The notes under the pieces: model-generated | Database searches by the model: none | Told to the model about the DNA's origin: nothing | What the model saw: only the letters and a program-made list of their open reading frames with translations | Assembly: GCA_026984035.1 (NCBI GenBank) | Contig: JALSSW010000177.1 | Location: 1 to 35,386 of the forward strand | Length of the DNA stretch: 35,386 bases | Reading direction: 5' to 3' | Source: Planctomycetota bacterium | GTDB taxonomy: Bacteria > Planctomycetota > UBA1135 > GCA-002748355 | Translations under genes and position numbers: made by a program | Shown here: in pieces, positions 14,553-27,168 of the stretch | Layout: each line of letters begins with the position of its first letter | How positions within the stretch are numbered: the first letter of the stretch is position 1

Positions 14553-17500
14553 ATGGCACTCAAGGGAGACCTTGCAAGCGTGGGGCTGGCGGACGTTTTT
14601 CAGATGCTCGCCATGAACCAGAAAGTAGGCATTCTCTCCATTCAAGGAGAGGAGGGTTGGAGAGCTCTATTCTTCGATAAGAATGGGGTCACGCTCTTTT
14701 ATAATGAACATCTTTTCTTGGATCGTCTTCTGGACAACTTGGTTCGTAAAGGACTCTTATCTGCGGAATTTGTCCAAACCGCCAGACGAGAAAACCTTGG
14801 GGATCCTGTAGGAACCGCCGAGTCTATGATCGCGAACGGGTCCATCAGAGAGGCGGATTTCCTCGATGGGTTCAGGGACCAGATGGAGGAGGAGATCTAC
14901 GACCTTTTTCTCTGGGGGAATGGGAACTGGGAATTTTTCGAGGGTGCTCATCAGTGCGAAGGTCATGAAGGCGTCATTAATGACCATTTTTTCTTCAGTG
15001 CTGATTCCTTGGTGATGGAGGCCGCTCGTCGGCTGGATGAATGGGCTTACATTCGGGAACAAGTCTCCAGTGAGAACGATGTTTTCGAACGGACGGAGCA
15101 GATTCAAGGCCCCGATATTGCGAAAATCGATGAGGCGAACCTCTCCCTTTATGAGCTGGTGGATGGAAAGCGCAATGTGCGACGGATCATCGATTCCAGC
15201 GGGATTACTCCCTTTTTGGTTTTTAAGACGCTCTCCATTTTTTGCCAGCAGGGCTGGATTCGGCCCCTTCCCCCTGAGCAGCTCGTTCCCACCGCGAGAG
15301 AATGCATCGAAGAATCCCGACTCGAGGATGCGATCCACCTGCTGGAGAAGGCCATCGATGCTGGAATTGGTCTTCCCGAAGCCCATCAGCTTGCGGCGAA
15401 ATGCTATGAGATGAAAAATGAGCCCGCTCGGGCGAATTGGCACTACAAGATCTTCGCCCTTGGGCTTTCGACCGGCGGCAATCCTGCGGGGGCTGCAGAA
15501 ATCCTCAACAAAGTTTTAAGGCGAATTCCTACGGACCTCGAAGCCTGGGAGGAACTGGTAAAAAACCTCCTTCTTCTTGAGAAGCCTGAGAGGGATCCTC
15601 ACGAAGCCGGCCAAAGTTTGATCGAGATCTATTTGGATTTGGAAGAAGTAGAGAGAGCCCGGGCGGTTTTGGAGGGCTTGCTCAAGACTCGGCCTGATGA
15701 CATCGAATTGAAAAAGACCCTTGTCGGCGTTCATAGCAAGGCGGGGGACCAGAAGAAGGTCATGGAGCTTTATGAGTCCATCGCCGGGGATTTAGTCCAA
15801 AGAAAAGATCCCATGGGAGCGGTCCGCTTCCTTCAGAAGATCCTCATGCTGGACCGGAATCGGTCGGATATCTCCGAAAAGATCCGCAATCTCATCCGAT
15901 CGGATGAGCGCAGTCGATCCCGGAAGCGGGGCTTTGCCATTTTGGTCACCTTTGTGGGAGTGGCCATGGTGCTTGGGGTCCTCTATTTCTTTTATGAGAG
16001 AAAGGCGCGGGAGGCTTTCGGCCAGATCAACGCGCAACCCAAGGTTGCTGCCGGAGATTTTCAAGGGGCCATCGATCTCTATCGTTCCTTCTTGAGGCGC
16101 TATCCCTTGAGCCTTGTTGAAGGAGAGGCAAAAGAGGAGATCGCAAGGATCCGCTCTGCAAAGGCCTTGGTCGATGCGGAAAAAGAGAGAGAAACACGGG
16201 CGGAGAAAGCTCGCATTGCCAAAATTCGGGGGAACTACAAGAAACTATGGGAGCAATACCTCATAGAATCGGCCAAGGAAAAACCGGATCTCACAGCCTC
16301 TCTTCGAAAGCTGGAAGGGATTTTGCTCTTAATAGAAGAAGCAGGAAAATCCGTGGATGAAGAGTTTCGTCGGAAAAATCCCATCGACGAAGCGATCGCC
16401 AAGATTCGTTCTTATCTATCTGCTGCAAACGCTCTTTCAAAAGCGAAGGAGAAAGCCCTTGCGAAGGGAGATTGGAAAAAGGCCAGGGCTCTTGCTTTAA
16501 AAATAGAGGCGGAGTACCCCCTATCCCCCAATTTGAAGACCTTGAAGGTTCCCGTCTATCTGAGGACACTTCCGAAGGGTGCTGAGATCCTGTTGGATGG
16601 AAAGCTTGTAACAGATGGGGACGGGAATCCTCTGCGAACACCCGCTGCGATCGGGATTCCTCCTTCCAGGAAGTCGAAAATCCTTTTACAAAAGGCTGGC
16701 TTTCTTTCTAAAAGCCTGACTTTGACCGGCAAAGGACCACTCCCTTCTCTTGTCTATCTTCCGGTGCGGCCGATTCATTCCTTCCAGAGTCCCAGGAAAT
16801 GGAGCGTTGGACCCGTTCCGGCAGGAAAGAACCTTCTCATTGGAGGATTCGGAGGTGTGCTTGCTTCGATCAATCCTCTCAACGGCAAAGAACGCTTCGC
16901 TACGATCTTGAAGGATTTGGAAGAAGTTTCCCATCCCCCGGTTCTTTGCGGGGAGATGGCGGTGCTGATCACCTCAGGGAAACATCTTGTGGGCTTGGAT
17001 CTGGAGAGAGGAGAGATCGTTTGGTCGACCGCCTTGGACAAGGTCAGGAACAGCAACCTTCTGGCCCTGGGCGATCGAGTTGTTGTTTTGGATGCGGGAG
17101 GGGTTCTTCGGTCCTGGAGTGTGAACCTGGGGAAGAAGGGGTGGACCGTCTCCATTGAAGATCCCTCCAAGGCTGTTCTTCGCATGTTTCGGGGGCGACT
17201 TTGGGTGATCCAACGCTCCGGAAATGTCAGCATCTTGAATCCCGAAGATGGTGAGGTTTTTTACTCCCGGAAAATCGGGGAGGAATTCGTCGGAGAACCG
17301 GTGGTGCATGATGGAGTCCTCTACGTTTTGGGTTTGGAGGGGAACATCCATCGATTTGATCCAGTTCGTGGATATCTCGGGATCCATTCTTCTCTCAAGA
17401 TTCCACAAGGCGTTCCGTGGGCCATGTTTCGGTTGGGAGACCGATTTGCTGTCCTCAATGACACAGGACATCTGTTTTTTGAGGATAAGAATGGGCCGGA

Positions 17501-17738
17501 GACGAATCGCTTGTCCTCTCTTAGCGGAAAGCCGATTGCAGCGCCTCTCGTGACCTCTACGGGGGTTTATTTCGCTGCGGAGGACAAAGACGGCAAGTCC
17601 TTCCTTGTTTCTGTGGACCGAAAGGGGCAGATACGCTGGCGCTATGACTTCAAAGGAATCCTTGTAGGCAAACCTTCTTTGTGGGGGGAGCGAGTCGTTA
17701 CTGCAGTCCGAGATGGCCGCGTTTTTGTGCTGAAGTAG
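14553..17738 (+). CDS. DUF4388-TPR-transmembrane-PEGA-PQQ propeller protein
   Basis: A 1061-residue multidomain protein. Residues 1-130 are a DUF4388 (PATAN-type) domain: MALKGDLASVGLADVFQML, ILSIQGEEGWRALFF. About 240-440 is a TPR-like helical array. A single membrane segment lies at about 458-478, preceded by a basic RSRSRKR, so the N-terminal part should be cytoplasmic. Next come a charged coiled-coil region (about 485-655), a PEGA-like domain (about 662-740; LPKGAEILLDGK) and, from about 745, PQQ-type propeller repeats (GSFGG-like VLASINPLNGKERF, LVGLDLERGEIVW, VSILNPEDGEVFY) that should be periplasmic. It heads a run with three roadblock proteins and an MglA-type GTPase, so it may link the envelope to that switch. 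Exact function unknown. Confidence 0.9.
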   Translation: MALKGDLASVGLADVFQMLAMNQKVGILSIQGEEGWRALFFDKNGVTLFYNEHLFLDRLLDNLVRKGLLSAEFVQTARRENLGDPVGTAESMIANGSIREADFLDGFRDQMEEEIYDLFLWGNGNWEFFEGAHQCEGHEGVINDHFFFSADSLVMEAARRLDEWAYIREQVSSENDVFERTEQIQGPDIAKIDEANLSLYELVDGKRNVRRIIDSSGITPFLVFKTLSIFCQQGWIRPLPPEQLVPTARECIEESRLEDAIHLLEKAIDAGIGLPEAHQLAAKCYEMKNEPARANWHYKIFALGLSTGGNPAGAAEILNKVLRRIPTDLEAWEELVKNLLLLEKPERDPHEAGQSLIEIYLDLEEVERARAVLEGLLKTRPDDIELKKTLVGVHSKAGDQKKVMELYESIAGDLVQRKDPMGAVRFLQKILMLDRNRSDISEKIRNLIRSDERSRSRKRGFAILVTFVGVAMVLGVLYFFYERKAREAFGQINAQPKVAAGDFQGAIDLYRSFLRRYPLSLVEGEAKEEIARIRSAKALVDAEKERETRAEKARIAKIRGNYKKLWEQYLIESAKEKPDLTASLRKLEGILLLIEEAGKSVDEEFRRKNPIDEAIAKIRSYLSAANALSKAKEKALAKGDWKKARALALKIEAEYPLSPNLKTLKVPVYLRTLPKGAEILLDGKLVTDGDGNPLRTPAAIGIPPSRKSKILLQKAGFLSKSLTLTGKGPLPSLVYLPVRPIHSFQSPRKWSVGPVPAGKNLLIGGFGGVLASINPLNGKERFATILKDLEEVSHPPVLCGEMAVLITSGKHLVGLDLERGEIVWSTALDKVRNSNLLALGDRVVVLDAGGVLRSWSVNLGKKGWTVSIEDPSKAVLRMFRGRLWVIQRSGNVSILNPEDGEVFYSRKIGEEFVGEPVVHDGVLYVLGLEGNIHRFDPVRGYLGIHSSLKIPQGVPWAMFRLGDRFAVLNDTGHLFFEDKNGPETNRLSSLSGKPIAAPLVTSTGVYFAAEDKDGKSFLVSVDRKGQIRWRYDFKGILVGKPSLWGERVVTAVRDGRVFVLK

Positions 17739-17806: not shown

Positions 17807-18931
17807 GTGAGCCTATTTAAGCGGTTCAAAATAACCAGAGAACTTTCCAGGCTGGAGAAGAAGGCCAAGGAAGACCCTTCGCCTTCCCTGTTTGTGGACC
17901 TCGCTCAGGTCTACATCAACTTGGGTTCTCAAGAGGATGCCCTTAGGGTTGTTGAGGAAGGTTTGGTTCTCTTTCCCCGTTCCGATGAACTGCGCAAAGT
18001 CCATGGTTTTGCAAAAAAACAAGTTCTGACAAAGAAAATCGAATCCCTTCGAGGGGAGCTCTCGAAGAGTCCGAGGCCTCATCTCTTCCTCAAGTTGGCT
18101 CAAGCCTATTTGGGGCAGGGGGATGAAGACTCTGCTTTTGCGGTCTGTCGGGAATGTTTGAAGCGTTACCCTGAGGATTTGGAGTCGCGCTTGCTTTTTG
18201 CGGAGATGGCCACTCGTGCCTTCCAAAAAACCTTGAATGTGGACAAAGGAAGAGAAGCCCATCAGGTTCTTCTCGAAATCCTCGAGCGTGATGAAAGGAA
18301 TAAGAAGGCCCACAAGGAATTGGCCCAGCTATTCTTTGGAATCGGCTATTTGGAGGGGTCTCAGCACCACCTTGGCATCTTGAGGAGCCTTGGCAGGATC
18401 GATAAGGAATCACGGGATCTGGAACAGGAGATCTTGCACGCCCTGGAAGAAGGAGCCCCTTCCTTTGACGACCCCGGCACAGCTCTTTTGGAAGTGGAGA
18501 AGAGAGGGGGCTTGATTCATGGCAAAAAGAGAAGCCTTGGTGGAGGACCGAAAAGGATCCTTGCTTCGGAAGAAGCCCTAAACGATGTAAGAGAAGGTCT
18601 CTCCAAGCTGGTGGCAAGGGAAGGGGTTTCAAAGGCTGCCTATATTCGGGGAAGCAAAGCGCTTGTTCGTGGGGAAGTTCGGGATGGTCGTGATCCCTTC
18701 CTCAAAACTGCCCGTGTCTTTGCCAAGGTGGCACAGAGGACGGTAAGGAGGATGGACCTGGGAAACTTCAGTAAGGGGATCCTGGACGGAGTCTTCGGGC
18801 ATATTTGCATTTGCAGTTTTGGGGATGTTTGTGCTGCGGTCCAATGCCAGGGGAATGCAGACCTCGATTGGGTGCTCCAAGACCTCCAGGACTTGGTTGC
18901 GAAATCCCTTTACACGGCGGGAAAGAAATAG
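17807..18931 (+). CDS. TPR-roadblock/LC7 fusion protein
   Basis: A 374-residue protein. Residues about 20-215 are TPR-like helix pairs (PSPSLFVDLAQVYINLGSQE, PHLFLKLAQAYLGQGDEDSA, NKKAHKELAQLFFGIGYLEG). Residues about 258-370 resemble a roadblock/LC7 domain: LSKLVAREGVSKAAYIRGSK, a central helix, then HICICSFGDVCAAVQCQGNA and DLQDLVAKSL. Roadblock proteins of the MglB type bind and stimulate small GTPases. I chose the GTG at 17807 because GGGAGAGA lies just upstream; no in-frame ATG fits. It starts 69 bases after the propeller-protein gene and is 21 bases before the next roadblock gene, as in an operon. Confidence 0.78.
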   Translation: MSLFKRFKITRELSRLEKKAKEDPSPSLFVDLAQVYINLGSQEDALRVVEEGLVLFPRSDELRKVHGFAKKQVLTKKIESLRGELSKSPRPHLFLKLAQAYLGQGDEDSAFAVCRECLKRYPEDLESRLLFAEMATRAFQKTLNVDKGREAHQVLLEILERDERNKKAHKELAQLFFGIGYLEGSQHHLGILRSLGRIDKESRDLEQEILHALEEGAPSFDDPGTALLEVEKRGGLIHGKKRSLGGGPKRILASEEALNDVREGLSKLVAREGVSKAAYIRGSKALVRGEVRDGRDPFLKTARVFAKVAQRTVRRMDLGNFSKGILDGVFGHICICSFGDVCAAVQCQGNADLDWVLQDLQDLVAKSLYTAGKK

Positions 18932-18952: not shown

Positions 18953-19306
18953 ATGGACGAACTTCTAAGAGATCTCATGAAAAAGGTGGGGGCTAAAGGA
19001 GCCTTAGTTGTTACCAATGATGGGATGGTCGTAGCTGGGTTCGTTCGGGCGGATACCCGAAAGGACGTTGTAGGCGCCCTTTCATCTTTTCTCATTTCGG
19101 CGACCAATCGTTGCCTCATGCAGGGGAATGTTGGGGGGTTCAACCGGATTTTTCTGAAAGCCACCCACGGAAAGATCCTTATCCAGGCCCTGAAGGACTA
19201 TTTTGTGGTTGTCTTGACCGACCAATTTTCGGACAAGGTCTTGTTGGTCGATGAAACCATGCGGGTGGCTTCCAAGCTTAGAAAGCTGACCACCATCCAG
19301 TCCTGA
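18953..19306 (+). CDS. Roadblock/LC7 domain protein (MglB-like)
   Basis: A 117-residue, single-domain roadblock protein: DLMKKVGAKGALVVTNDGMV, a middle helix with ALSSFLISATNRC, ILIQALKDYFVVVLTDQ and a final helix VASKLRKL. The length and order match the MglB family, which forms homodimers that act on MglA-type GTPases. GGGGAG lies four bases before the ATG. It sits between the TPR-roadblock gene and the GTPase gene. The GAP or scaffold role is inferred from the family, not seen. Confidence 0.88.
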   Translation: MDELLRDLMKKVGAKGALVVTNDGMVVAGFVRADTRKDVVGALSSFLISATNRCLMQGNVGGFNRIFLKATHGKILIQALKDYFVVVLTDQFSDKVLLVDETMRVASKLRKLTTIQS

Positions 19307-19496: not shown

Positions 19497-20441
19497 ATGG
19501 TCCAAATCAACTTCGCCCTCAAGGAAGTCAACTGTAAGATTGTCTTCTATGGTCCTGGGATGAGCGGTAAGACCACCAACCTGGAGGTCGTCCACCAAAA
19601 AGCACCGGAAGAGAACAAGGGGGATTTGACTTCGATCTCGACCGATGGAGATCGAACTTTGTTCTTTGATTTCATGCCGCTCGACCTGGGAAAAATCGCT
19701 GGGATGCAAACAAAATTCCAGCTCTATACCGTTCCCGGTCAAGTCTATTACAACTCAACGCGGAAACTTGTCCTACAAGGGGTTGATGGAGTCATCTTCG
19801 TCGCCGAATCAGACCCTGACAAGATGGCCGAGAATATCGAAAGCTACGAGAACCTGATCGAGAACCTCATTGAATATGGAAAGGATCTTCAAGACCTTCC
19901 CCATGTCATTCAATACAACAAACGGGACCTCCCCAATGCTCTTCCTGTGGAAGAAATTGATCGACAGCTGAATAGGTTTGGAGTTCCGACCTTTGAAGCA
20001 GTGGCAAAGACAGGAGAAGGGGTCTTTCCCACATTGAAGACTCTTGCGGGGATGGTGTTGGAGAGTATCAATAAATCGGACCGTGGAGGGGGAAGGGGGC
20101 CCAGTAGATCCCCACGCCCGCAGACTACGAATTCGGCCCCAAGCCCCGAGGTAGCTCCCCAAGGAAGAGGGGCGAGCGCAAAAGCGCCGAAAACTTCCGG
20201 TCGAGGCCCGGCACCTGCACCTCGGCAGGCGCGGCCGGTTGCGGCTCCAAGAGGCAAGGCTCCCGTTGCAAAACAGGCCCCACGGAAGGGGGGGCAACCC
20301 AGGCAGGGACCAAGAGTTGCTGTCCAAGCTAATGCTCCCGTCAAGAAGGAAGGGAAGGGATTCCTTGTTGCCTTTCTTGTCTTATTGATGGCTGCCGTTG
20401 CGGGAGTCGCGTACTTGGTCATGCAGCAGCAGGGCTTTTAA
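19497..20441 (+). CDS. mglA: MglA-type Ras-like GTPase with C-terminal membrane anchor
   Basis: A 314-residue protein; ordinary MglA is about 195. Residues 1-195 are the GTPase: P-loop GPGMSGKTT (19-27), DGDRTLFFDFMPLDLG with Arg53, switch II YTVPGQVYY with Gln82, and NKRD (141-144). Arg53 and Gln82 are the residues used for hydrolysis in Myxococcus MglA. Then comes a Pro/Ala/Gly/Arg-rich linker (about 196-285) and one hydrophobic helix (288-309) with a five-residue QQQGF end, so the protein is tail-anchored, GTPase in the cytoplasm. AGGAG precedes the ATG by 11 bases. The start of the last roadblock gene follows after 22 bases. The symbol refers to the domain family; the role in polarity or motility is not shown here. 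Confidence 0.93.
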   Translation: MVQINFALKEVNCKIVFYGPGMSGKTTNLEVVHQKAPEENKGDLTSISTDGDRTLFFDFMPLDLGKIAGMQTKFQLYTVPGQVYYNSTRKLVLQGVDGVIFVAESDPDKMAENIESYENLIENLIEYGKDLQDLPHVIQYNKRDLPNALPVEEIDRQLNRFGVPTFEAVAKTGEGVFPTLKTLAGMVLESINKSDRGGGRGPSRSPRPQTTNSAPSPEVAPQGRGASAKAPKTSGRGPAPAPRQARPVAAPRGKAPVAKQAPRKGGQPRQGPRVAVQANAPVKKEGKGFLVAFLVLLMAAVAGVAYLVMQQQGF

Positions 20442-20463: not shown

Positions 20464-20976
20464 ATGACTTCAGACCAAAGACTCCGTCAGAGCAGACTGG
20501 TTTTCTATGAAGATGATATTTCGAAGATCGATAAGATTCTCTCGGAGTTCCTCCGTTTGAGTGGGGCAAAATGTGCCCTCCTTGTAGATAAAGAAGGGCA
20601 TTTGGTGACCAAGCAGGGAGAAGTGAAAACTTTGAACATGGACACGATCTCTGCCCTTGTAGCTGGCTCTTTCGCAGCCACAAAGGAGATGGCGAAACTC
20701 TTGGGAGAAGAACACTTTTCCGCTCTTTTTCACCAAGGGGAGCGGGATAACATCCAACTTTCTTTGGTCGGTGATCGAACCCTTCTGACAATCCTCTTCG
20801 ATGATCGGACGACAGTGGGGATGGTTCGGCTCTATGCAAACGAAGCTTGCAAGAAATTGGTGAATATTTTCGACGAATCCGAACGACGGATGAAGGAAGA
20901 GGGGCCGAGAGAATTGGATCTTGGAAAGGGGTATGGGAATTCAGCGAAGGACAAGCTGGATAATCTCTTTCAGTAA
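20464..20976 (+). CDS. Roadblock/LC7 (MglB-like) protein with C-terminal extension
   Basis: A 170-residue protein with a roadblock domain at about 20-135: KIDKILSEFLRLSGAKCALL, a VTKQGEV strand, ALVAGSFAATKEMAKLLGEE, QLSLVGDRTLLTILF and YANEACKKLVNIF. A charged tail of about 35 residues follows. The family regulates MglA-type GTPases. I chose the ATG at 20464 because GGAGAGGG lies six bases upstream; an earlier in-frame start at 20398 would overlap the GTPase gene. It is the last gene before a strong terminator. Of the three roadblock proteins in this locus, it is the one immediately after the GTPase, so it is the best MglB candidate. Confidence 0.88.
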   Translation: MTSDQRLRQSRLVFYEDDISKIDKILSEFLRLSGAKCALLVDKEGHLVTKQGEVKTLNMDTISALVAGSFAATKEMAKLLGEEHFSALFHQGERDNIQLSLVGDRTLLTILFDDRTTVGMVRLYANEACKKLVNIFDESERRMKEEGPRELDLGKGYGNSAKDKLDNLFQ

Positions 20977-21317
20977 CGATCCGATTGCTTGAAGGCAAAA
21001 AGAACCTCGAAGGGTTTCCTTCGGGGTTTTTTTGTACTTTTCGTGAAAGAAAAAACAAAAAAACTTCCTGGAAAGAAAATTCTCCTTCAGGTTTTAATGT
21101 GGAAGGAATGCCAGTTAAATGAGTTCTTTTTGGGAAGTTGCAAAACGTTTTAGCGGGAATTGGTCGCTAGTCCTTTTGGGATCAAGAGTTGTGACTGAAT
21201 TTATATCGGAGAGTTGCCGATGATCTGAGGAGATCCAACCTTCATCCATTGGTTGGAAAGTTTCCGTACCAATCAAGGTGCAAACAATCGATTGTCACTC
21301 AATCAGGAGTCAACCAT
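20977..21317 (+). other. Intergenic region between roadblock gene and histone-like gene
   Basis: 341 bases with no gene I can support. It contains the terminator at 21003-21033 and then an A/T-rich leader up to the AGGAG of the lysine-rich gene. A promoter must lie here; TATATC near 21202 is a possible -10 but has no convincing -35. Confidence 0.5.
21003..21033 (+). terminator. Rho-independent terminator after the GTPase/roadblock locus
   Basis: AACCTCGAAGG (21003-21013) pairs over all 11 positions (one G-T) with CCTTCGGGGTT (21018-21028), around a GTTT loop, followed by a run of seven T. It closes the locus starting at 14553. Confidence 0.9.
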
Positions 21318-21656
21318 ATGGCTGCTAAGAAAAAAGCGACCAAGAAAAAGGCCGCCAAGAAAAAGGTGACCAAGAAGGCCACCAAGAAGAAAGCGACCAA
21401 GAAAAAGGCTGCCAAGAAAAAGGCAACCAAGAAAAAGGCCACCAAAAAGAAAGCGACCAAGAAAAAGGCCGCCAAGAAAAAGGTGACCAAGAAGGCCACC
21501 AAGAAGAAAGCGACCAAGAAAAAGGCTGCTAAGAAAAAGGTGACCAAGAAGAAAGCGACCAAGAAAAAGGCCACCAAGAAGAAAGCGACCAAGAAAAAGG
21601 CCGCTAAGAAAAAAGCTGCAAAGAAAAAGACCGCCAAGAAGCGGGCTCGTAGATAA
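21318..21656 (+). CDS. Lysine/alanine-rich repeat protein (histone H1-like)
   Basis: A 112-residue protein made almost wholly of four- to five-residue units KKAT, KKAA and KKVT, ending KKRARR. It has no globular part. Such proteins resemble histone H1 tails and bacterial H1-like DNA-binding proteins, so binding to DNA or RNA by charge is likely. The ATG at 21318 has AGGAG eight bases upstream; the earlier in-frame start at 21249 gives an unrelated N-terminus and was not used. The gene uses AAG/AAA codons with a DNA-level repeat of 117 bases inside. It is followed by a strong bidirectional hairpin. The sequence is highly repetitive, so copy-number changes between strains are likely. Confidence 0.85.
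   Translation: MAAKKKATKKKAAKKKVTKKATKKKATKKKAAKKKATKKKATKKKATKKKAAKKKVTKKATKKKATKKKAAKKKVTKKKATKKKATKKKATKKKAAKKKAAKKKTAKKRARR
21351..21529 (+). repeat. 117-base internal repeat in the lysine-rich gene
   Basis: The 62 bases at 21351-21412 recur without a mismatch at 21468-21529, a period of 117 bases (39 codons). Shorter units of 12 bases built on ACCAAGAAAAAG fill the rest. This is coding repeat, not a CRISPR array: no spacers vary between units. Confidence 0.85.
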
Positions 21657-24064: not shown

Positions 24065-24485
24065 TGAATTGCGGGGGTTTTGGGAAAGCCCTGGAGAGGG
24101 GAGCAGGAACTGAGGCCCTTGCTCCCACTGAGACAAACAGTTAAAAATGGTTGCTTGTCTCCTTATTCTTCCCATTCTTTGGACAAGCATATTTGGGCCT
24201 TAAGCCTGATCCCAATATGCCGGATCCAAAGGGTGGGGAGTTCATGGGGGGCGATTTCCTTGGAAAATCCAAGACCAGAAAGCAGAACCAAAAAGAAGAA
24301 CTTTGTTGCCCTGGTTTTAGTTCCTTCTTTGTAGGGATTTGTTCTTTGTGACTACTTTGAATCATCCAAACAGGACTTTTATAGGGGATCTTCTGCGATC
24401 GATCGATTAGGTTTCCAAGGATTTTTGGTTTTTTTCTTTGTCTCTTCTCAATTTTTCTTTTCTCACAGTCAAAGGAGTTCTTTCC
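24065..24485 (+). other. Long leader/intergenic region before the first secreted paralogue
   Basis: 421 bases without a gene I can support; the small open frames here have no ribosome-binding site or recognisable protein. It holds a 7-bp inverted repeat (GGGAGCA/TGCTCCC, near 24098-24126) after the dehydrogenase stop that could act as a weak terminator, and the candidate promoter at 24357-24385. The last 70 bases are T-rich. Confidence 0.5.
24357..24385 (+). promoter_or_regulatory. Candidate promoter for the secreted paralogue gene
   Basis: TTGAAT (24357-24362), 17 bases, then TATAGG (24380-24385). Four of six consensus bases match in each hexamer. It would give a leader of about 95 bases ending in AAAGGAG before the ATG at 24486. 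Confidence 0.4.
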
Positions 24486-25742
24486 ATGGGAAAGATCACA
24501 CTCTCTCTTCTGAGTGCCGGCCTCCTCGCCGGTGTCGTTGCTGCCCAAGGAATCCCAGGCGCTGGTCCTGGAGTCATTAGGGGGCAGCAGATCAGTAAAG
24601 CCTTCGACACAAAGAACCTGACCAAGGTCGGAACTGGGGTCACACAGGTCAGTCTTGTGAAGCTCCCCAACAACGCTCCGGGTACTTGGACAGCTTGCTT
24701 AACCATTCAGCGGCTTGCGAGCGCCTATGGTGGCACGGGGCAGGTGGACGGTGTTGTTATGGGCACCTGGAATATGGCCAAGAACACCTTCACTCCCAAC
24801 ACCCTTGCGAACAAACTCAACACCGGTAACAAGGGTGAGTTTGGTCTGATGCTGGAACCCAAGTTGGGTTTGGTTGCAGTTTTGGATAAATCCGATGGCG
24901 TGTATCTCGCCAAGCGGAACGTTTTCACGCAAGCCTTTCCAGCTCCCTTCAAGGTCAAGGGCGTCCCCGGGACCTATGTGGATCCATCGGTTGGAACCGT
25001 CGGTGGAAAACTGAAGCTTTTCTATGTCGCGACCTTTAACAATGTTGCCGGCATCTACATGAGTGACCTTGTTGTTCCCGCCAACATGTCGGCCACCAAT
25101 CCTCCCTCCGTTACCGGCACTCCCGTGCTGGTTTCTGCCAAGGTGCAGGCCAGTGGTTTGGTGCATTCCCCGACTCCGATGATGGGACCCGACAACGATA
25201 TCGAAGGGCTCTTTATGGCCGAACGGGTTGGAAACGATTCAGATATGTTCATTGCGAACGATTTGAATCCCAGCACGCCGACCCTGAAGGTTGCCGATAA
25301 CACGGCTTGGATGAACAACGGTGGATTTGCCGGCGGTATCTTCCACTTCGCAAACTCGGCGCACTATGCCTCCGGCTCGGACGAGCTTGGTGTGGCCTGG
25401 TTGTTGGGTGACAATGAAAAGGTTGGCGGAACCATGAACATCACCAGTGGTGTCTTCCGCGAAAGCGCCGCTGCGGTCATGCCTGTCTTCCTCTCTCTGA
25501 AGCTTCTGCCTGCCGCCCTCCCCATTGGCGGCTTCCTTGGGAAACTTGGTCTGGATCCCGCCGTCCTGGTCACAGTGGGCACTATTACTCACGCCACCCC
25601 TGATCAGAGAGGCAGCCTGGCGATTCCTCTCCCCAACAACAATGCTCTTAAGGGCCTTGTTCTTCCTATCCAGGGCGTTGCTTTTGAGCTTGCAAAGGGC
25701 CGTAAGACCTTCAGCAATACTGCATGGGTTAAAATCAAGTAG
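24486..25742 (+). CDS. Secreted protein, first of a tandem pair, unknown function
   Basis: A 418-residue protein with a clear signal peptide (MGKITLSLLSAGLLAGVVAAQG, cleavage near AAQ). The mature part is beta-rich and shares blocks with the next gene: GVVMGTWNMAKNTF, VAVLDKSDGVYLA, FPAPFKVKG, VGTVGGKLKLFYV, DNDIEGLFMAE, GGFAGGIFHFA, and the ending FSNTAWVKIK. I do not recognise the family. The ATG at 24486 has AGGAG upstream and the signal peptide begins there. Codon choice (AAG, AAC, GCC, GGC, CTC) looks strongly biased compared with neighbours, as in a highly expressed gene. It may be a cell-surface or exported structural/binding protein. It is followed by a hairpin before the second copy. 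Confidence 0.75.
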   Translation: MGKITLSLLSAGLLAGVVAAQGIPGAGPGVIRGQQISKAFDTKNLTKVGTGVTQVSLVKLPNNAPGTWTACLTIQRLASAYGGTGQVDGVVMGTWNMAKNTFTPNTLANKLNTGNKGEFGLMLEPKLGLVAVLDKSDGVYLAKRNVFTQAFPAPFKVKGVPGTYVDPSVGTVGGKLKLFYVATFNNVAGIYMSDLVVPANMSATNPPSVTGTPVLVSAKVQASGLVHSPTPMMGPDNDIEGLFMAERVGNDSDMFIANDLNPSTPTLKVADNTAWMNNGGFAGGIFHFANSAHYASGSDELGVAWLLGDNEKVGGTMNITSGVFRESAAAVMPVFLSLKLLPAALPIGGFLGKLGLDPAVLVTVGTITHATPDQRGSLAIPLPNNNALKGLVLPIQGVAFELAKGRKTFSNTAWVKIK

Positions 25743-25882: not shown

Positions 25883-25935
25883 AACCCTTCAGTTTAACAA
25901 CGTGCTTTTTGGTTCCTCTCGTGGCTTCCTTTGTT

Positions 25936-27168
25936 ATGAATCTACTTCGAAATGCACCGCTTTGTTGCGGTCCTCTTGTTCTCTCCCTGGCCCTTAGTGC
26001 GCAATCGGGTCCCGGTCCTTTTCTCAAGCCTCACCCCAGTTTTGTCATTGTCAGTTCCTTCAATTCCGTTCCCGGAAATGATATGCAACAGGTCTTTCAT
26101 GTCAGGCTTTCCAACAATCCCGCTGGGACCTATGCGACTGCTTTGACGGTGGGAGGACTCCCTCGCTTTTTTGGGGGAGACGGTAAATCGAGGGGACTTC
26201 TCATGGGGACTTTTCAGCCTTATTCGGGCAAGTTCTTGGTGAACCTCGAGGCCAAGGCTCTGAATTCCTCCAAAGATGATCGCCACCTGACCCTGGACCC
26301 CAGCGGATTGTACGCGATCTTTGATCGGGATGATGGAGTTTGGCTCTCTGTACGGTCCAAAGTCGGAACGGCCTTTCCAGCTCCTAGATTGGTTGCGGGA
26401 TTTGGGAAACTGAGGGATGTGCATCCCAACTTGGGCACGATCGGTGGCAAGACCTTTTGCTTCTATTCGGATGGATCGAAAATCCTTCGAAGAGGGATCG
26501 ATCTTAAAAATGCCAAGCTCTTTGGGACTGCTGTTGTCGTATCCCTTCCGCTTCAAAAAGGAGCGAAACCCACTTCCCCCTTCCTTCTCCGAGGTGGGGA
26601 CGGAGATGTTGAAGGCCTGTTTTTCTCAGAAGAAGTGAAGCCTCGTCCCGGGGGTGATTCGGATTTGGTCTTTGCCTCGGACCTGGATCCTGCAACACCT
26701 CCCGTCATGGTCGTACAACGGCCGGATTACACAAATTCCCCAAGCTTTGCTGGAGGGATCTTGAGTTTTGCTCATGACATTCTTCCCAGGTACCACATCA
26801 TGGAAGGGGAATTTGCCTGGATGATCGGAGATGTCGAAGGTTTGGGAGGCATCGCCGATTTGGCGGGAGCTGCATCGGCTCGGTCCTATCCGAAATCCCT
26901 GTTTACGGCGCTCTTCCTTGGAGCGGGAGTCATGAACAAAGTTCCCATTGCTGGGATTAAAGGGGCTTTGGGTCTCAATCCCGGTGTCCTCTTTTCTATG
27001 GGCTTAATTGCGCACCAAGGAGGGCAGGATGGAAGCTGGAAGGCTTCTTTCCCCATTCCTCGAGATCTCAGCTTAAAAGGGCTCAAGACGGCTTGGCAGG
27101 GCTTGACCATTGACAGCGGTCGAAATGTGAAGGTCTTTACCAATACTGCTTGGGTGAAAATTCAGTAG
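25936..27168 (+). CDS. Secreted protein, second of the tandem pair, unknown function
   Basis: A 410-residue paralogue of the preceding gene. Shared blocks in the same order include NNPAGTYATALTV, GLLMGTFQPYSG, LYAIFDRDDGVWLS, AFPAPRLV, LGTIGGKTFCFY, GDVEGLFFSEE, SFAGGILSFAHD, and the ending FTNTAWVKIQ. The N-terminus (MNLLRNAPLCCGPLVLSLALSAQ) is a signal peptide. I chose the ATG at 25936; in-frame TTG and GTG codons lie 27 and 15 bases upstream, and no strong ribosome-binding site decides. Codon use is less biased than in the first copy. Identity to the first copy is modest, so the duplication is old. Function unknown. Confidence 0.72.
   Translation: MNLLRNAPLCCGPLVLSLALSAQSGPGPFLKPHPSFVIVSSFNSVPGNDMQQVFHVRLSNNPAGTYATALTVGGLPRFFGGDGKSRGLLMGTFQPYSGKFLVNLEAKALNSSKDDRHLTLDPSGLYAIFDRDDGVWLSVRSKVGTAFPAPRLVAGFGKLRDVHPNLGTIGGKTFCFYSDGSKILRRGIDLKNAKLFGTAVVVSLPLQKGAKPTSPFLLRGGDGDVEGLFFSEEVKPRPGGDSDLVFASDLDPATPPVMVVQRPDYTNSPSFAGGILSFAHDILPRYHIMEGEFAWMIGDVEGLGGIADLAGAASARSYPKSLFTALFLGAGVMNKVPIAGIKGALGLNPGVLFSMGLIAHQGGQDGSWKASFPIPRDLSLKGLKTAWQGLTIDSGRNVKVFTNTAWVKIQ

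Follow-up and report, generated by a model that had tools for sequence, protein, structure and literature searches.

A predicted tail-anchored MglA GTPase and its conserved gene cluster in Planctomycetota

Models of cell polarity built on the bacterial GTPase MglA assume that the inactive form is cytoplasmic and rebinds at the pole. In M. xanthus, MglA-GDP has been reported as diffusely cytoplasmic and MglA-GTP as occupying the leading pole (PMC9481161), and the effectors of MglA in this organism include the TPR protein SgmX (PMC7519303). Group 2 GTPases are without Arg53 (PMC4316618), and the products of the actinobacterial conservons are described as a membrane-associated complex in the title of Komatsu 2006, as cited in the same survey (PMC4316618). 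The main text of that survey of prokaryotic small GTPases mentions neither Planctomycetes nor a membrane helix in MglA, and in the main texts of the open-licence literature we found no description of a membrane-anchored or planctomycete MglA. Here we analyze a planctomycete locus, within a window of 35,386 nucleotides (the whole stretch of DNA under analysis), whose MglA carries a predicted membrane anchor of its own.

The open reading frame at 19497-20441 (+ strand) translates without a stop into 314 residues and is preceded by a Shine-Dalgarno-like GGACAGGAG. In phmmer comparisons, residues 2-198 match the MglA proteins of M. xanthus (5ymx, E 6.2e-73) and T. thermophilus (3t12, E 1.4e-68), with scores far above those of any Ras or Arf protein, and a Foldseek comparison of the AlphaFold2 model with M. 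xanthus MglA (6h17) gives a TM-score of 0.94 (by target length). Alignment of 40 orthologues shows that the P-loop residues (G19-P20-G21..G24-K25-T26), R53, T78, Q82 and N141-K142-R143-D144 are invariant, bearing out an earlier note, made from the letters of the DNA, that had recognized a full GTPase here from its P-loop, Arg53, Gln82 and NKRD motif. The sequence features of Group 1 MglA proteins are present, both within the GTPase domain (P-loop, Arg53, Thr78, Gln82 and NKxD) and beside it, where a cognate MglB roadblock gene adjoins the MglA gene. With every testable family feature in place, the product is a true MglA of the Group 1 type (Table 1).

Table 1. Features of the MglA locus, in window coordinates
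Feature	Coordinates	Strand	Evidence
PATAN/DUF4388-TPR-TM-TPR-PQQ propeller protein, putative receptor-like partner	14553..17738	+	Pfam DUF4388 E 2e-19, PQQ_2 E 4e-19
TPR protein with C-terminal roadblock domain	17807..18931	+	Pfam TPR; AlphaFold2; Foldseek
Second small Roadblock/LC7 protein (RoblA, 117 aa)	18953..19306	+	Pfam Robl_LC7 E 3.5e-9
MglA-family Ras-like GTPase domain, residues 1-195	19497..20081	+	phmmer; Foldseek 6h17; catalytic residues invariant in 40 orthologues
Linker, residues 196-286; Pro/Ala/Arg-rich, predicted to be disordered, rapidly evolving, with net positive charge	20082..20354	+	AlphaFold2 pLDDT ~50-55
Predicted C-terminal transmembrane helix (tail anchor), residues 288-309	20358..20423	+	KD19; pN<pS; AlphaFold2; 109/116 orthologues
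MglB, Roadblock/LC7, presumed GAP	20464..20976	+	phmmer M. xanthus MglB 6hjm E 7.6e-29; Robl_LC7 E 2.9e-13

Beyond the GTPase domain, the protein continues into a low-complexity segment of about 90 residues that is predicted to be disordered, and then into a single helix that AlphaFold2 places at residues 287-311 with a pLDDT of ~91. Across the orthologue family, the linkers are 25% Ala and 19% Pro, with a median net charge of +12. The most hydrophobic 19-residue stretch of the tail begins near residue 290 and scores 2.74 on the Kyte-Doolittle (KD) scale; when the residues of this tail were shuffled 2000 times, the mean was 0.68 and the highest value 1.84, so that richness in Ala by itself cannot account for the score. 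Comparison of the helix codons with those of five relatives yields pN values of 0.02-0.16 against pS values of 0.29-0.91, indicating that the helix has been under purifying selection in the given reading frame. Judged from both sequence and model, the 287-311 helix has the hydrophobicity needed to cross a membrane. This layout agrees with the one that the earlier note had drawn, in which a Pro/Ala/Arg-rich linker of ~90 residues leads to a lone helix at 288-309 lying five residues from the end; the five residues that follow residue 309 are QQQGF.

Inspection of the residues that flank the helix in the orthologues revealed that Lys and Arg make up 264 of 1308 positions (20%) in the 12 residues before it and 47 of 677 positions (7%) after it, a positive-inside bias that would put the GTPase on the cytoplasmic side of the membrane (N-in). 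No hydrophobic segment was found at the N-terminus, and the maximum KD value in the GTPase domain is 0.72 in the closest relative. By sequence, model and charge bias, the protein therefore has the features of a bacterial tail-anchored protein, namely a single transmembrane segment near the C-terminus and no N-terminal signal, and these same three lines favour a cytoplasmic N-terminal domain. In an environmental bacterium, a hydrophobic helix at the C-terminus might also be a PEP-CTERM/exosortase-type export or sorting signal, a reading that we consider very improbable given the missing N-terminal hydrophobic segment, an end (QQQGF) that is not an Arg-rich cluster, and a GTPase whose invariant GTP-site residues need the cytoplasm. 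The protein was accordingly rejected as an exosortase substrate, as its sequence contradicts the pairing of an N-terminal signal peptide with an Arg-rich cluster after the helix.

The orthologue sample was assembled from relatives in genome contigs together with 60 regions spanning ~50 family-level groups of Planctomycetota. A C-terminal helix of transmembrane grade is present in 109 of the 116 distinct complete planctomycete orthologues recovered; it ends no more than 12 residues from the C-terminus in 99 of these 109, is followed by 13-40 residues in five, and by a further 70-100 residues in five members of one family (f14). The linkers vary greatly in both length and sequence among these proteins, and the helix is kept. 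One of the helix-bearing proteins comes from the complete isolate genome Poly30 (L067), excluding an assembly error, and the prospect raised in the earlier note, that a sequence error had created the helix and that relatives would lack it, fails against this distribution. In the comparison of C-terminal ends across phyla that the note had proposed, the helix is absent from all 31 MglA proteins of Acidobacteriota (n=30; the phylum named in the title of one MAG, L063, was taken for comparison) and Deinococcus (n=1, 206 residues), and M. xanthus MglA is likewise without it. Over half of the 30 Acidobacteriota proteins are 194-196 residues long, and the others carry different C-terminal extensions. 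Going by these comparisons, the predicted helix characterizes planctomycete MglA in general rather than being a quirk of this gene, which makes an artefact less likely, and a tethered MglA is apparently found in most of the MglA-bearing Planctomycetota families sampled.

In a tree of the GTPase domain, all planctomycete MglA proteins form one clade (SH-aLRT 99) on which four changes of tail state are needed, a pattern that fits one gain of the helix and a small number of later losses or replacements. The MAG labelled Acidobacteria that was mentioned above has an MglA that groups with the planctomycetes instead, a placement that may reflect misbinning or transfer.

Several additional MglA-like proteins were seen in these surveys. 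A record titled Acidobacteria (L203:433-1698) encodes a planctomycete-type MglA, 74% identical, that bears an acidic extension but lacks the membrane helix; the same MAG also holds an ordinary 194-residue MglA, and misbinning or transfer may be responsible. Long MglA proteins of the comparison phylum (L218 and similar loci) share the C-terminal motif VPVVLDRSLFSGxxPVEIKLKLYIK. In the f14 members (L176, L178, L180, L185 and L191), the residues after the helix are Pro/Ala/Glu-rich and predicted to be periplasmic. The genome that holds our locus encodes, on a separate contig (C80, L085:1492-3267), a 591-residue MglA-like/histidine kinase fusion consisting of a GTPase domain (42% identical), an acidic linker, HisKA and HATPase_c; long frames of 580-750 residues with the same homolog recur across related families. 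One planctomycete genome of 9.5 Mb in a single contig (G107) contains eleven MglA-like GTPase matches, some of them in frames of ~1000 residues.

Seven of the 116 orthologues lack the helix, four of them ending in a short basic Phe/Lys tail and two being frameshift-like. L066, L075 and L134 were rejected as true helix losses, as their reading frames change character late and were treated as likely frameshifts. The C-terminal ends of L189, L190, L193 and L197 read IFKKFEKKFKK, FVGFLKGLFGK, PVFKKFKKFLDK and LFRKFKKFLDEK, respectively, and the basic tails of the helix-less lineages include FLKGLFGK and PVFKKFKKFL; two more copies with the same basic motif come from related genomes (L245 and L246). 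Amphipathic moments as large as those observed were rarely reached by shuffles for three of the four basic tails; L190 (FLKGLFGK), taken by itself, gave no significant result. The L190 tail resembles the membrane-targeting end of MinD. It is as if, in these sequences, one membrane anchor had been exchanged for another, and such an exchange favours the view that the tail has been selected for binding to the membrane. The basic end that stands in for the helix in L189, L193, L197, L245 and L246 (families f31 and f57) is conserved and follows roughly the pattern P-[VIL]-F-[KR]-K-F-x-K-[FLM]; genomes of both families also encode additional short MglA paralogs that look soluble.

These tails bear on the idea that the helix serves self-association or partner binding, such as packing against TPR or roadblock proteins, in a cytoplasmic protein and outside the bilayer. 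The TPR proteins of the operon could in principle bind a hydrophobic helix, and the membrane location is predicted from sequence. We nonetheless judge this reading improbable, given KD values over 19 residues that reach 2-3.7 in most orthologues, positive charges that gather on the N-terminal side of the helix, and helix-less lineages that bear basic Phe/Lys ends in its place. Anchoring by the C-terminal helix is, by comparison, well supported by predicted hydrophobicity, conservation and the AlphaFold2 model.

The MglA gene belongs to a cluster of five, ordered PATAN-TPR-PQQ, TPR-roadblock, RoblA, MglA-TM and MglB. Most planctomycete loci have the same arrangement; a few carry a PATAN-like gene downstream of MglB instead, and sequence comparison did not detect the small roadblock protein in the Poly30 group. 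The PATAN protein has a single predicted transmembrane segment near residue 460 (KD 2.53 at residue 462), and a stretch of that grade occurs in 33 of 34 homologues, at residue ~460-530 in most. No PDB sequence matched the C-terminal part of the TPR protein, whose roadblock fold emerged from structure comparison: the AlphaFold2 model (mean pLDDT 92.8) ends in a helix-strand-strand-helix-strands-helix domain that Foldseek aligns with the roadblock structures 7yh1 and 7f8m at a TM-score of 0.77 (by target length). These same two proteins, listed as coming from Asgard archaea, are the top PDB matches of RoblA, whose phmmer matches in the PDB are roadblock proteins from archaea and dynein, with no MglC named among them. 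MglB begins 22 bp downstream of the MglA gene, and its match to 6hjm spans nearly its full length. Clustering of all neighbouring open reading frames returned only scattered others and no further widely shared gene, and the neighbourhood survey linked no motility genes to the cluster. Within the window, a 135-residue Lys/Ala-rich repeat protein is encoded just downstream of MglB (21249-21656, + strand); it matches histone H1-like HC2 weakly, with a score that falls short of the Pfam threshold. Farther along the same strand lie tandem genes (24438-25742 and 25909-27168) for two mutually similar proteins that appear to begin with signal sequences and match no Pfam family.

We put a probability of roughly 80% on a tail-anchored MglA whose GTPase head lies at the cytoplasmic face of the inner membrane, joined by the ~90-residue linker to the C-terminal helix, and which is patterned within the membrane. 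The linker would set the reach of the tethered head toward cytoplasmic effectors, and the GTP/GDP cycle would run on the membrane under MglB (as GAP) and the two further roadblock-domain proteins, all of which may serve as GAP, GEF or adaptor. For the part of sensor or scaffold, the likely candidate is the membrane-spanning PATAN-TPR-PQQ protein. More tentatively, and at somewhat less than even odds, a periplasmic PQQ propeller may act as a sensor that signals through PATAN/TPR and three roadblock-domain proteins to an MglA that stays in the membrane throughout. Cytoplasmic release looks impossible without cleavage, so that any pattern would have to come from lateral diffusion, local activation and MglB-driven inactivation; an active zone might then be set by two-dimensional diffusion with local capture or GAP exclusion, rather than by release and rebinding at the pole.

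The earlier note had suggested that the helix would hold the switch at the inner membrane instead of allowing it to cycle between pole and cytoplasm. Anchoring itself draws strong support from conservation, charge bias, purifying selection and the basic-tail swap, and the contrast drawn with a cycling MglA is fair given the diffuse M. xanthus MglA-GDP (PMC9481161); membrane fixation does not, however, stop polarisation, because two-dimensional diffusion and capture could still produce it. Cycling through the cytoplasm would be retained if an intramembrane protease freed a soluble switch on signal. Transmembrane helices rich in Ala and Gly, together with a disordered linker, would allow such proteolysis, but no protease gene recurs in the neighbourhood and no cleavage motif stands out by eye in the fast-evolving linker, leaving this route unlikely. 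For the permanently anchored form, our default guess at the output, by analogy with other MglA proteins, is that it governs polarity or movement on surfaces. PilT was found in 389 of 392 Planctomycetota genomes and MglA in 172 of the 392, and since PilT is nearly universal, presence and absence cannot tie MglA to pili.

Together, the five-gene cluster and the tether suggest that Planctomycetota operate a switch for cell polarity or signalling in a different manner. If this is right, a phylum with a permanently tethered MglA would constitute a natural experiment on the need for cytoplasmic exchange, and might offer a bacterial Ras switch with a polarity or signalling output that does without cytoplasmic cycling. 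The conserved cluster partners provide candidate sensors and regulators. A bacterial Ras-type GTPase would also have gained an anchor of its own, comparable with lipidated eukaryotic Ras, and the kind of anchor has apparently been swapped in some lineages.

Compared with the Group 1 MglA of M. xanthus and T. thermophilus, the planctomycete protein shares the GTPase fold, P-loop, Arg53, Thr78, Gln82, NKRD motif and adjacent MglB; those proteins, however, are tail-less and ~195 residues long, whereas the planctomycete form adds the linker, the helix and three conserved genes. Among eukaryotes, Miro is a Ras-type GTPase with a C-terminal membrane-spanning anchor. A Rheb paralog of the SAR clade similarly combines a Ras-type GTPase with a C-terminal membrane helix, and its anchors have been swapped between lineages (PMC5869587). 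Unlike planctomycete MglA, which has no lipid-anchored ancestor and resides, by prediction, in a bacterial inner membrane, Miro and Rheb are of unrelated origin. The actinobacterial conservons (CvnA-D) resemble our locus in encoding a membrane sensor, an MglB-type roadblock protein and an MglA-type GTPase together, but the planctomycete sensor is a PATAN-TPR-PQQ protein rather than a histidine kinase, we saw no counterpart of CvnC, and the planctomycete GTPase is itself, by prediction, anchored and keeps Arg53. Finally, the Rag GTPases and Ragulator likewise bring a GTPase together with several roadblock-domain proteins at a membrane; there the roadblock scaffold is the anchor (PMC5680233), whereas the planctomycete GTPase appears to bear its own.
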